NCBI GenBank assembly: GCA_013214715.1
Contig: JABSSB010000125.1
Location: forward strand, 1 to 37,987
Length of the DNA stretch: 37,987 bases
Direction of reading: 5' to 3'
Source of the DNA: Paracoccaceae bacterium
GTDB taxonomy: Bacteria; Pseudomonadota; Alphaproteobacteria; Rhodobacterales; Rhodobacteraceae
Shown here: positions 10,569 through 36,300 of the stretch, one piece after another
How positions within the stretch are numbered: the stretch's first letter is position 1
How the letters are laid out: each line of letters starts with the position of its first letter
Notes under the pieces: model-generated
The model's input: only the letters and a program-made list of their open reading frames with translations
The model's database searches: none
What the model was told of the DNA's origin: nothing
Made by a program: the position numbers and the translations under genes

Positions 10569-11273
10569 TCAGTCTTCGTTATACCTGTAACCGATGCCAT
10601 AGAGCGTTTCGATGGCTGCGAAGTTTTCATCAGCCCCGCGCATCTTCTTGCGCAGACGTTTGATATGGCTGTCGATGGTGCGGTCATCGACATAGACCTG
10701 ATCATCATAGGCCACATCCATCAGTTGATCGCGGCTTTTGACAAAGCCGGGGCGCTGCGCCAATGCCTGAAGCAGCAGGAATTCGGTGACCGTCAGGGAC
10801 ACATCCGTGCCCTTCCAGCTGACCGCATGGCGCAGCGGGTCCATGCGCAGGTGGCCGCGCTCCATCACCTTGCCATCATTGCGTTCTTCGGTGCTGACGG
10901 TTTCAATCGCATCCTGACGGCGCAGCAGCGCGCGAATACGTTCGACCAGCAGGCGCTGTGAAAACGGCTTTTTCACATAATCATCCGCGCCCATGCGCAG
11001 GCCCAGCACCTCGTCGATCTCATCATCTTTCGAGGTCAGGAAAATCACCGGCAACTGGTTGGTCTTCTGCCGCAGCCGCTGCAGCAGGTCCATGCCGTCC
11101 ATGCGCGGCATCTTGATGTCCAGCACGGCCATATCCGGCATGCTTTTGTTAAAGGCGTCCAAAGCGGATTGGCCATCATTGAAGGTTTCGACTTCAAAGC
11201 CTTCATTTTCGAGAGTCATTGCGACCGATGTCAGAATATTCCGATCATCATCTACAAGTGCGATACGCGACAT
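10569..11273 (-). CDS. chvI: ChvI-type OmpR-family response regulator
   Basis: [41 protein letters not shown]...[22 protein letters not shown]; winged helix [17 protein letters not shown]. Confidence 0.93.
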
Positions 11274-11479: not shown

Positions 11480-11514
11480 AATTGATTGCGCTAAAGGCCA
11501 ATAGATTGCGCTAA
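11480..11514. promoter_or_regulatory. Tandem direct-repeat operator candidate upstream of pckA
   Basis: AATTGATTGCGCTAA (11480-11494) and AATAGATTGCGCTAA (11500-11514): 14/15 identical, exactly 20 bp start to start. Confidence 0.6.
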
Positions 11515-11661
11515 CGACGAAAAACGCTCCTGTTCACTCCCGGAAACGTCATGTTATGACCCGCTCACGACCTCCGGCCGGGCGCGTCCCGGACGGAGGG
11601 TTATTGCGAATCGTCCTTGCGCCAAAAAGCTTAGGCGCTTGTGTGACAGGAGAGATCAGAC

Positions 11662-13260
11662 ATGACCACCGGACGGGTAAACCCGAACTTCCGCCTCGAA
11701 GATCAAGGCATCGAAGGGTTGGGTCAGGTCTATTATAACTTGATGGAACCGGCGCTTGTCTCAACCGCTTTGGCGCGCGGTGAAGGCAGCCTGGGCAAGG
11801 GCGGCGCGTTCCTGGTGACCACCGGCAAGTTTACCGGCCGGTCGCCCAAGGACAAGCATGTCGTGAAAACCGACAGCGTCGCCGACACAATCTGGTGGGA
11901 CAACAACGCCGCCATGTCGCCCGAAGGCTTTGACGCGCTGTATGAAGACATGCTGGCCCATATGAAGGGCCGCGACTATTTCGTTCAGGATCTGGTGGGC
12001 GGGGCCGACCCCGCGCATTCGATCAATGTGCGCATGGTGACGGAACTGGCCTGGCACGGGCTGTTCATCCGCCATCTGCTGCGCCGCCCGGATCGCGAAG
12101 ATCTGGATGAGTTCACTGCCGATTTCACCGTGATCAACTGCCCCAGCTTTCAGGCTGACCCGGCCAAGCATGACTGCCGCAGCGAAACCGTCATCGCGAT
12201 GAATTTCGACCAAAAGCTGATCTTGATCGGCGGCACCGAATATGCGGGTGAAAACAAGAAATCGGTCTTTACGCTGCTGAATTACCTGCTGCCGGAAAAA
12301 GGCATCATGCCGATGCATTGCTCGGCCAATCACGCGATTGGCAACCCGGTGGATGCGGCGGTGTTCTTTGGCCTGTCGGGCACCGGCAAGACCACGCTGT
12401 CAGCTGATCCGGGCCGCACGCTGATCGGTGATGACGAACATGGATGGTCGGATCGCGGCACCTTCAACTTTGAAGGCGGCTGCTATGCCAAGACGATCAA
12501 TCTCAGCCCCGAGGCCGAGCCCGAGATTTACGCCACGACCGAAAAATTCGGCACGATCATCGAAAACATGATCTTTGACGAAGAGACCTTCGATCTGGAT
12601 TTCAACGATGACAGCCTGACGGCGAATATGCGCTGCGCCTATCCGCTGGATTACATTTCCAACGCGTCGAAATCGGCGTTGGGTGGGCACCCCAAGAATA
12701 TCATTATGCTAACTTGCGACGCCTTTGGCGTGCTGCCCCCGATTGCCCGGCTGACGCCCGCACAGGCGATGTATCACTTCCTGTCGGGTTTCACGTCAAA
12801 GGTAGCAGGCACAGAACGCGGCGTGACCGAACCTGAGCCGACCTTCTCCACCTGCTTCGGCGCGCCCTTCATGCCGCGTCGCCCCGAGGTTTACGGCCAA
12901 CTGCTGCGCAACAAGATTGCCCAGCATGGCGCGACCTGCTGGCTGGTGAACACGGGCTGGACCGGTGGTGCCTATGGCACGGGCTCCCGTATGCCGATCA
13001 AGGCGACCCGCGCCCTGCTGACGGCGGCGCTGGATGGCTCGCTGGCGCAGGCGGAGTTCCGCAAGGATGAAAACTTCGGTTTCGAGGTGCCGATGGGCGT
13101 GGCCGGCGTGCCAGATCTGCTGCTTGAGCCGCGCAAGACCTGGGAAGACAAAGCTGCCTATGACGCGCAGGCCGCCAAGCTGGTCACGATGTTCTCGGAG
13201 AACTTCCAGCAGTATCTGCCGCATATCGATGATGATGTGAAAGCGGCGGCCATCGGCTGA
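11662..13260 (+). CDS. pckA: Phosphoenolpyruvate carboxykinase (ATP)
   Basis: [68 protein letters not shown]. Confidence 0.98.
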
Positions 13261-14237: not shown

Positions 14238-16060
14238 TCAGGCGGCGCGCTTCACGCGATGGGCGGCGGAAATGATATCGGCCCCTTTTTCGCCGATCAT
14301 GATCGAGGCCGCATTGGTGTTGCCGCTGATGATGTCGGGCAACACGCTGGCATCGGCCACACGCAGATTGCCCACGCCGTTCACCCGCAATTCGGCATCG
14401 ACCACATCCCCCATCCGGCAGGTCGAGACGAGGTGATAGACGGTCGTCGAGAAATGCAGCGCCATATTCTCCAACAGCGCGTCGCTGGGCGGCTCACCAG
14501 CCACATAGCCATGCTTCTCGGCCAGTTCCGGCGGCACGTTCAGCGGGCCGGGTTTCACATCGCCGGGCCAGTTTTCGACGATCTCAAGGCATTTGCGCAT
14601 CACCGCGACCATGACCTTCAGATCATGCGGATCGGTGAAATAATTCATCCGGATGATCGGCGCATCGGCGGCATCCTTGCTGGCCAGAACGATCTCTCCG
14701 CTGGAATGGGGCAGAACCGGGTTGGCAAGCAGGAACATGTTTTCCGCCGTCGCAGCCAAACTCGCCTCGGGATCGGCAAAGAAGCGCGACAGATCAATGC
14801 GCAGCCGGTCGCCCAGTAGCCCGGCATCATAGCCGCAGGGGACATAGCCGATTTGCGCGTCATGGCTGTGATGATCGCCCAACCCGGTCGAGAAAAACGC
14901 CACCGCATCATAAAGCGATGACGAGACAAGGCTTTCGCCCGTTTCCATCCATTCGCCCACGCGGCGTTCGGCCTCGGCCTTCAAACCGGCCAGTTCGGGC
15001 GGCAGGTTGGCATCCTCTGCAGGATCGGCGGGCAGCGGACCGGCAGGCGCACGCAGGGCATCCGGCCCGGCCGAAACACCGACCTCTGCCACCGGCACGC
15101 CGATGCCGGGGGCCGGAAAGAACAAAGCGCAATGCAGATGGTCCTTGAGGTTCTTGCCCACGCCGGGCAATTCGACCTGACAGGTCACGCCGACCTCTTC
15201 CAATTCGCGGCGAGGACCAATCCCCGACAGCATCAGGATCTGCGGAGAGCCCACGGCACCCGCGCTCAGGATCACTTCGCCGCTGGCATGCAGCGCGTGC
15301 AGGGCACCATCGGCATCCCGATATTCAATGCCGGTCGCGGTCGGCGCGTCGCCTTCGGTCAGCAGCACGCGGGTCACCTGCGCGCCGGTGACGATGGTCA
15401 GGTTCTCGCGCGCTTCGGTCTCGCCCTGCAGGAAGGCGCGATAGGTGCTTGAGCGCATCCCGTTCCGTGTTGTTGTCTGGAAGAGCGATGTCACCCCCTC
15501 CGGCCCGCCGCGGTCACGGCCATTGTAATCGCCGCGTGCCATGCCCGTCGCCTCGGACGCAGTGACAAAACTGCGCGCCGCCGGAATCACGGGAGAGCGG
15601 ACAGACACCCCCAAAGGCCCGCCCGTGCCATGCGCGTCGCTGTCGATCGACACTTCGTTCGACGGGGTCAGGTCTTCGGATTTGATGAAATAGGGCAGCA
15701 CATCCTCGAACGACCAGCCGGTTGCGCCCATCTCGGCCCATTTGTCGAAATCGCCGGGATGGCCGCGCACATAGGCCATGTAGGTCAACGCCGACGACCC
15801 GCCCAGCATCTTGCCCCGCGGCACCGGCATCACATTGCCGACCAGCCCCAGCCCAGCATTGCCGGGATCAGCCGTATACATCCAGTCAGTATTGGGGTCG
15901 AGCTGCAGGCTCGCCACGGCGGCGGGCATCAATTCGTGATCGGGGGCGCTTCGCCCGCTTCGACCAAGGCCACGATTTTTGTCGGATCTTCGCTGAGCCG
16001 CGTGGCCATCACGGCCCCCGCAGACCCACCGCCCACGACGATGAAGTCATAAGTTGTCAT
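14238..16060 (-). pseudogene. GMC family oxidoreductase (choline dehydrogenase-like), single frameshift near the N-terminus
   Basis: N-terminus [39 protein letters not shown] is in one frame (stop at about 15929); the rest ([25 protein letters not shown]...GKMLGGSSALTYMAYVRGHPGDFDKWAEMG...RMGDVVDAELRVNGVGNLRVADASVLPDIISGNTNAASIMIGEKGADII) continues one base off after a C5 run near 15945. Confidence 0.85.
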
Positions 16061-33978: not shown

Positions 33979-35424
33979 TTATTCCGGATCGGTCTTGACG
34001 ATCCGCCGCTCATCGCAGGGGGCGACGCGCAGGATGTTGGTCGTGCCGGGGATGTTGAAGGGCACGCCTGCGGTCACCACGATCTGATCCTCTTCCGTCG
34101 CAAAGCCGCCCGCCCGCGCGGCGCGGGCCGCGTTGATCACGGCCATTTTGAACCGGTCCAACTTACCGGTCCGCACCGTCGTGCAGCCCCAGACCAAGGC
34201 CAGTGCCCGCGCGGTATTCAGCTCGGACGTGATTGCGATGATCGGCACATTGGGCCGTTCGCGCGCGGTCAGCAGAGCGGTGGTGCCCGATTGGCTGTAG
34301 CAGCAGATCGCCTTGATATCCGTGGTTTCGGCAATCTCGCGCGCCGCGGCCACGATCGCATCGGCCACAGAGGCGCCCGTGGTCTGGCGCGAGGCCGCGA
34401 TGATCTGGCGATAGGTTGGATCGGTTTCGATTTCAGCCGCAACGCGGTCCATCATGCTCACGGCTTCTGTAGGGTAACTGCCTGCGGCGGATTCGGCGCT
34501 GAGCATGACCGCATCGGCGCCTTCATAGATCGCGCCGGCCACGTCAGAGACTTCGGCGCGGGTGGGCACCGGGCTTTCGATCATGCTTTCCATCATCTGG
34601 GTCGCCACGATCACAGGTTTGGCCGCGCGACGTGTCTTGCGCACCAGCTGTTTCTGGATCGGGGGCACGGCTTGCACCGGCAGTTCCACCCCCAGATCGC
34701 CCCGCGCGACCATGATCCCGTCGGAGGCGGCAAGAATCTGGTCAAACCGCTCTACCGCCGCAGGTTTTTCGATTTTTGACAGGATGAAGGCACGGTCGCG
34801 GGCCAATGCGCGCGCCTCTTCGACATCTTCGGGACGCTGGACAAAGGACAGCGCCAGCCAATCGACGCCAAGGTCGCAGACAAATTCCAGATCGGCGCGG
34901 TCCTTTTCCGACAACGCGGCCAAGGGCAGCAGCACGTCCGGCACGTTCACACCTTTGCGGTTCGAAATCGTGCCGCCCGTCACCACGATACAATTCGCGA
35001 AATCCGGGCCGCACTCTTCGACGCGCAAGCGGATCTTGCCGTCATTCACCAGCAGGGTCGATCCCGGCTCGAGCGCCTGAAAGATTTCGGGATGGGGCAA
35101 ATTCACGCGGGTGGCGGTGCCCGCGGCCTCGTCCAGATCAAGGCGGAAGCCCGCGCCTTCAATCAGGTCTTCGGCGTCATTGGCAAAGACACCGACGCGC
35201 AGCTTTGGCCCCTGAAGGTCGGCCAGAATGGCGATGGGGCTATTATATTCTTCTTCGACCTGACGGATGATGCGGTGGCGTTCGGCGATCTCGTCATGCG
35301 AGCCATGGCTCATGTTCAGGCGGAACACGTCGGCCCCGGCCTCATGCAGGTCGCGGATCATTTCATAGGTGCTGGAAGCCGGGCCCAGTGTGGCCACTAT
35401 CTTAACCTTGCGGTCGCGTTTCAT
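33979..35424 (-). CDS. pyk: Pyruvate kinase
   Basis: MKRDRKVKIVATLGPASSTYEMIRDLHEAGADVFRLNMSHGSHDE; SDGIMVARGDLGVELPVQAVPPIQKQLVRKTRRAAKPVIVATQMMESMI; start set at MKRDRK. Confidence 0.98.
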   Translation of the reverse strand: MKRDRKVKIVATLGPASSTYEMIRDLHEAGADVFRLNMSHGSHDEIAERHRIIRQVEEEYNSPIAILADLQGPKLRVGVFANDAEDLIEGAGFRLDLDEAAGTATRVNLPHPEIFQALEPGSTLLVNDGKIRLRVEECGPDFANCIVVTGGTISNRKGVNVPDVLLPLAALSEKDRADLEFVCDLGVDWLALSFVQRPEDVEEARALARDRAFILSKIEKPAAVERFDQILAASDGIMVARGDLGVELPVQAVPPIQKQLVRKTRRAAKPVIVATQMMESMIESPVPTRAEVSDVAGAIYEGADAVMLSAESAAGSYPTEAVSMMDRVAAEIETDPTYRQIIAASRQTTGASVADAIVAAAREIAETTDIKAICCYSQSGTTALLTARERPNVPIIAITSELNTARALALVWGCTTVRTGKLDRFKMAVINAARAARAGGFATEEDQIVVTAGVPFNIPGTTNILRVAPCDERRIVKTDPE

Positions 35425-35456
35425 CGTCTCTCTCTCCGCTTCGTCCTTAGCGGCCC

Positions 35457-35472
35457 ATGTTACCGCAAACAT
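35457..35472. promoter_or_regulatory. Palindromic operator candidate upstream of pyk
   Basis: ATGTTACCGCAAACAT (arms ATGTT/AACAT, central CG), 33 bp upstream of the pyk start and in the pyk / amidohydrolase divergent region. Confidence 0.5.
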
Positions 35473-35547
35473 CGTTGTCGTCCTTATGGCGCAATTCCCA
35501 TTGGCGGGCAACTGTCCTATGGGATGGAAAACAGACATGACAAGACG

Positions 35548-36300
35548 ATGAAATATACTCCGATCCTGATCGATGGCGCCGAACGTAGCGGGCGCTTTGT
35601 GGTAAGCTGCGACCATGCCTCCAATGTGGTGCCGCCCAGTGTAGGTGGGGGCGATCTTGGCCTGCCGCCCGAGGATATGGCGCGCCATATCGCCTGGGAT
35701 CCGGGGGCGTGGGGTGTGTCAAAACATCTTGCAAAGCTGCTGGAGGCGCCGGCGATCGGGAGCAATTTCTCGCGGCTTGTGATCGACCCGAACCGAGGAG
35801 AGGATGATCCGACCCTGATCATGCAGATCTATGACGGGTCGATTATTCCGGGCAATCGCCATGTCGATGCTGCCGAACGCACACGGCGGCTGGAGGCATT
35901 TTACCGCCCCTATGATTGCGCGCTCGCCGAAAAGATCACGCCCGGCAAGGCGTTGGTGGCGGTGCATTCCTTCACACCACAGCTGCGCGGACGCCCGCCC
36001 CGTCCGTGGGAAATCGGCGTGCTTTACCCGACCGATGACCGCTTTGCCCGTCCCTTCATCGCGCGTCTTGAGGCCAAAGGCGATCTGACCGTGGGGGATA
36101 ATGAACCCTATATCGGCTATCTGCCCGGAGATGCAGTCGACCGCCACGCAACGGCGCAGGGTCTGCCCAATGTCCTGATCGAGCTGCGCAATGATCTGAT
36201 CGCCAGTGAAGCGCAGCAAAGAGCATGGGCCGAAAGACTGGCGCCTTTGTTGCGCGGGGCGCTGGAGGATTTCGACCAAGATCCGGCGCATATGTCTTAA
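35548..36300 (+). CDS. N-formylglutamate amidohydrolase family protein
   Basis: GRFVVSCDHASNVVPP; ARHIAWDPGAWGVSKHLAKLLEAPAIGSNFSRLVIDPNR; VAVHSFTPQL; VLIELRNDLI. Confidence 0.93.
   Translation: MKYTPILIDGAERSGRFVVSCDHASNVVPPSVGGGDLGLPPEDMARHIAWDPGAWGVSKHLAKLLEAPAIGSNFSRLVIDPNRGEDDPTLIMQIYDGSIIPGNRHVDAAERTRRLEAFYRPYDCALAEKITPGKALVAVHSFTPQLRGRPPRPWEIGVLYPTDDRFARPFIARLEAKGDLTVGDNEPYIGYLPGDAVDRHATAQGLPNVLIELRNDLIASEAQQRAWAERLAPLLRGALEDFDQDPAHMS

Follow-up and report, generated by a model that had tools for sequence, protein, structure and literature searches.

A probable CceR/GapR-type operator upstream of pyruvate kinase and its relation to tandem boxes upstream of pckA in a Paracoccaceae bacterium

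Introduction

GapR and CceR are names given to a LacI-family regulator, and we take them to denote the same protein. The use of RegPrecise matrices for CceR (PMC5507952) is part of the basis for this assumption. Ravcheev et al. (2014) predicted GapR (RSP_1663 of Rhodobacter sphaeroides) in all 13 Rhodobacteraceae studied, with predicted targets including pykA, pckA, zwf-pgl-pgi, edd-eda, gapA, gapB, eno and tal (PMC4052901). The motif described for RSP_1663 is an inverted repeat, [AGT]GTT-N6-8-AAC[ACT], for which two spacer classes were noted and which has pckA and zwf among its targets (PMC4344238). This regulator represses glycolytic genes and activates gluconeogenic genes, and proteomic analysis of a Paracoccus denitrificans cceR deletion mutant grown on glyoxylate detected a decrease in PckA and an increase in Pyk (PMC11323563). 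The effector has been cited as 6-phosphogluconate or gluconate-6P (PMC4419725; PMC5507952).

Comparable LacI-family systems are present in other lineages. PckR is a dual regulator of pckA, pykA, zwf-pgl-edd and eda but has been described as not orthologous to GapR, with a different motif and a distribution restricted to the Rhizobiales (PMC4052901). GluR of Caulobacter similarly controls Entner-Doudoroff genes and pykA but is non-orthologous, recognizes a different 20-bp palindrome and is found only in the Caulobacterales (PMC4052901). The enterobacterial Cra/FruR system is analogous to the regulon considered here but constitutes a separate regulon. Its operator is different and its effectors are fructose phosphates. 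Cra/FruR is also a LacI-family switch, repressing glycolysis and activating gluconeogenesis (PMC4052901).

The DNA analyzed here, termed the window, is a stretch of 37,987 nucleotides from a Paracoccaceae bacterium (contig JABSSB010000125.1). A box upstream of pyk within this window is, on sequence comparisons, very probably an operator for a CceR/GapR-type regulator that also acts, with the opposite sign, on pckA. This finding is a new instance of the already published regulon, with which it shares the bacterial family, a LacI-family regulator, a CG-centred palindrome and the targets zwf, edd, gap, eno, pykA, tal and pckA (PMC4052901). There is no difference of kind, the pckA boxes found here being a degenerate tandem that departs from GTT-N6-8-AAC (PMC4344238). 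As the switch has already been published, the added value lies in a clean genome annotation and in a testable idea of activation through weak tandem boxes. The comparative analysis also offers independent support for control of both pyruvate kinase and PEP carboxykinase by a single regulator in this family, an arrangement that avoids futile cycling at the PEP/pyruvate node. The extent to which the pyk site is conserved across the family is shown as well.

The putative pyk operator

The gene for pyruvate kinase, pyk, occupies positions 33979..35424 of the minus strand (NCBIfam PRK06247 and TIGR01064 over cut-off), with its ATG at 35424. Direct reading of the sequence located the 16-mer ATGTTACCGCAAACAT at 35457-35472, exactly where the first-pass annotation had placed it; the position upstream of pyk was also correct, but the intervening gap measured 32 bp (35425-35456) and not 33 bp. 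In its coding-strand form, ATGTTTGCGGTAACAT on the minus strand, the box is a CG-centred LacI-type palindrome with one mismatch to TGTTANCGNTAACA and a 14-bp operator core at 35458-35471. The published inverted repeat is present at this site as TGTT-ACCGCA-AACA.

A pyk promoter was predicted from footprint conservation, with a −10 element (CATAAG) at 35483..35488 on the minus strand, 11 bp before the 14-bp core, and a −35 element (TTGCCC) at 35506..35511 on the same strand, separated from the −10 by a 17-bp spacer. In 26 of the 40 box-bearing pyk promoters of the family, the distance from a conserved −10-like ATAAG to the start of the box was 7-16 bp, and a conserved −35-like TTG block was present upstream; as this promoter motif was defined after viewing the alignment, its score is descriptive. 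The box would span approximately +5 to +18 of the predicted transcript, whose start is expected near 35476 on the minus strand; this is a repressor position at the predicted transcription start. Given its constant placement with respect to the pyk promoter, the box at 35457-35472 is most likely a pyk operator.

The box end is also 76 bp from a divergent gene of the N-formylglutamate amidohydrolase family (35548..36300, plus strand; Pfam PF05013), confirming that the site lies upstream of this gene as well. Control of the amidohydrolase gene by the box, instead of or besides control of pyk, would be in keeping with retention of this divergent pair in 29 of 30 loci. We consider this unlikely, as the pair was conserved also in genomes where the box is absent, the 7-16 bp distance from the predicted pyk −10 was the feature maintained in 26 of 40 genomes, and sites elsewhere in the genome precede glycolytic genes.

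Genome-wide distribution and conservation of the box

The pattern TTASCGCAAWC, for which the first-pass annotation had suggested a check for enrichment near central carbon genes, was used to scan the 3.7-Mb genome. Eight matches were detected compared with five for the reversed control. Two of the eight were at pckA, one at pyk and one at eno, and in the flanking DNA that was read the remaining four were not followed by central carbon genes. A clear enrichment was therefore not apparent and the pattern alone is weak evidence. The 11-mer was rejected as an operator definition, its enrichment being unclear and its sequence a fragment of the real palindrome. The informative motif is the palindrome TGTTANCGNTAACA. 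With no more than one mismatch, this palindrome was present at only five sites in the genome, and translation of the flanks placed all five upstream of gap, edd, pyk, zwf and tal. The products, named from reading of the translations by eye without a family search, were glyceraldehyde-3-phosphate dehydrogenase, 6-phosphogluconate dehydratase, pyruvate kinase, glucose-6-phosphate dehydrogenase and transaldolase, whose functions are glycolytic, Entner-Doudoroff and pentose-phosphate. When up to two mismatches were allowed, 42 sites were detected, a number not above that of the reversed control (102), and weaker sites were therefore accepted only with other evidence. Among these weaker sites, eno and a second gap gene scored well with a matrix derived from the pyk boxes of other genera. 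The regulon genes with a site in this genome, besides pyk and pckA, were edd, gap (two genes), zwf, tal and eno. Several further loci examined from the two-mismatch list had their sites within coding sequence and were left uncounted.

Phylogenetic footprinting, which had been suggested alongside the scan, was performed on a family sample of 81 genomes, one per genus, all of which (81/81) contained pyk. Upstream DNA of pyk was read in 78 of these genomes, with 350 bp being examined. A pyk box with no more than two mismatches was retained in 39 of 64 regulator-bearing genera compared with 1 of 14 genera without the regulator (Fisher p = 0.0002, a value that ignores relatedness, with the regulator-less genomes tending to be more distant). 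The number of box-bearing genomes expected was 0.3 with shuffled sequences and a mean of 0.6 with permuted palindromes, the highest control (27) being a near-copy of the motif. This footprint bore out the conservation of the site. In the remaining 25 of the 64 regulator-bearing genera, the 350 bp examined contained no pyk box, and this observation counts against a CceR/GapR-type operator at pyk.

The pckA tandem boxes

The pckA gene, encoding an ATP-dependent PEP carboxykinase, lies at 11662..13260 on the plus strand (NCBIfam TIGR00224 and PRK09344.1-4 over cut-off). Two boxes precede it on the same strand: box 1, TGATTGC-GCTAAAG (11483..11496), and box 2, AGATTGC-GCTAACG (11503..11516), the centre of which is exactly 20 bp from that of box 1. 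The boxes contain an exact 11-bp repeat (minus-strand form TTAGCGCAATC) at 11484-11494 and 11504-11514, 20 bp apart. Direct reading confirmed that the pyk-box core GTTACCGCAAACA and the pckA-box sequence GTTAGCGCAATCT are identical at 10 of 13 positions. A genome-wide search for further GCGCTAA tandems detected none beyond pckA, making this the sole case of such a tandem at 20-bp spacing in the genome. An OmpR/PhoB-type response regulator gene (window 10569-11273) is divergent to pckA.

The published consensus GTT-N6-8-AAC is absent from the pckA sites TGATTGCGCTAAAG and AGATTGCGCTAACG, yet both are recognized by the pyk-box matrix, with the pckA boxes of the window scoring 12.8 bits compared with 21.1 for the pyk box. 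This weight matrix was derived exclusively from the pyk boxes found in other genera, the window's own pyk box being excluded. When applied to the family, in which pckA upstream DNA was read in 42 genomes, all 29 regulator-bearing pckA regions exceeded the 95th percentile obtained with Markov-resampled sequence. The top-scoring sites in these regions were the boxes, usually paired 20-21 bp apart. The pckA core GCGCTAAC/GCGCAAAC was absent from 11 of 13 regulator-less genomes and retained in the other two, G044 and G019. The former (L031) has no LacI-family protein in its assembly and keeps both the pyk and pckA boxes; the latter (L141) keeps the pckA boxes with no CceR ortholog detected. Recent loss of the regulator or an assembly gap may possibly explain these cases, which have been counted against the preferred reading of one regulator acting at both genes.

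The weakness of the pckA boxes, their departure from the published consensus and their persistence in G019 would also fit a situation in which CceR acts here on pyk alone and the degenerate pckA boxes serve another factor. Such a separation seems improbable given the recognition of every regulator-bearing pckA region by a matrix built from pyk boxes, the absence of the boxes from most regulator-less genomes and the drop in PckA in the P. denitrificans cceR deletion mutant (PMC11323563).

A −35 element for pckA (CTGTTC) was predicted at 11530..11535 on the plus strand, downstream of box 2 and within a conserved CCTGTTC block, and a −10 element (TGTTAT) at 11552..11557 on this strand, with a 16-bp spacer and a conserved CATGTTAAG block. 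The boxes are thus centred approximately 54 and 74 bp before the predicted start, expected near 11564 on the plus strand, and upstream of the −35, which is an activator position. The location of the boxes relative to the predicted promoters could explain the opposite signs at pyk and pckA. At low levels of 6-phosphogluconate, when sugars are not being catabolized, a dimer of the regulator would bind the pyk box and block transcription, while the same regulator would bind the two degenerate pckA boxes upstream of the −35 and activate pckA. Sugar catabolism would then release the regulator, leading to an increase in pyk and a decrease in pckA.

The candidate regulator

The candidate CceR/GapR-type LacI-family regulator is encoded away from the window, on contig C68 of the same genome (G000; 14683-15699, minus strand), and is one of eight LacI-family proteins in this genome. 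The C68 protein has LacI DNA-binding and sugar-binding domains (Pfam), and most of the 80 other genera encode a relative that is 60-86% identical to it; from these domains and relatives, it was provisionally counted as the conserved CceR/GapR type. A nearly full-length match (E = 2.8e-186) was obtained to PDB 3kjx, a LacI-family transcriptional regulator deposited under a name without an assigned function. A site, CGTTACCGCGAACA, is present ~58 bp upstream of the C68 regulator gene and recurs at about −57 to −64 in many relatives.

On another contig of the genome (C307; L008), a CceR-like site, CGTTAGCGTAAACA, was detected at 1743 near the start of a local LacI-family gene, which adjoins a gene for a sugar ABC transporter binding protein. 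The presence of this site indicates that cross-binding between LacI paralogs is possible.

With eight LacI-family proteins in the genome and a similar site upstream of the C307 gene, a paralog other than the CceR-like protein might be the one binding the pyk and pckA boxes. The CceR-like protein is, however, the sole PF00356 member in six genomes (G009, G052, G070, G041, G062 and G074), of which all six have pckA boxes and three have pyk boxes. This persistence of the boxes where the C68-type protein is the only LacI member argues against another paralog, for which we see very little likelihood. A chance origin of the pyk palindrome, with a coincidental likeness to the pckA boxes, as the near-chance frequency of the 11-mer might suggest, is virtually discounted by the footprint across tens of genera, the related functions of the genes that follow the five best sites in the genome and the prediction of the pckA boxes by a pyk-only matrix.

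The first-pass proposal of a common operator with reciprocal control by one regulator was therefore supported by the genome scan, the footprint, the cross-prediction with the pyk matrix, the genomes with a sole LacI-family protein and the literature.

Alternative elements in pyk promoters

A GGCCCAC element (mostly GGCCCACC) was observed immediately downstream of the −10-like element in 9 of the 25 box-less regulator-bearing genomes (G003, G013, G022, G024, G026, G034, G042, G051 and G078) compared with 0 of 40 box-bearing genomes, and was also present in G019. In these pyk upstream regions, the element occupies the same place as the missing CceR box. A genome-wide search for GGCCCACCACGA in four relatives detected no enrichment over the control, and a second regulon was therefore not proposed.

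The least expected points of the analysis are the fixed weak tandem upstream of pckA and the occurrence of GGCCCACC as an alternative element in certain pyk promoters. We tentatively suggest, as close to an even call, a family-wide arrangement in which pyk is repressed through one strong palindrome at the start site and pckA is activated through a pair of weak boxes that lie upstream of the −35 and are separated by two helical turns, with part of the family having swapped the pyk operator for the GGCCCACC element.

Conservation was also observed in the spacer of the predicted pyk promoter (window 35489-35505), which contains GGGAATTGCGC, often extending to the palindrome ATTGCGCAAT. This conserved spacer might represent an additional site that overlaps with the pyk promoter.
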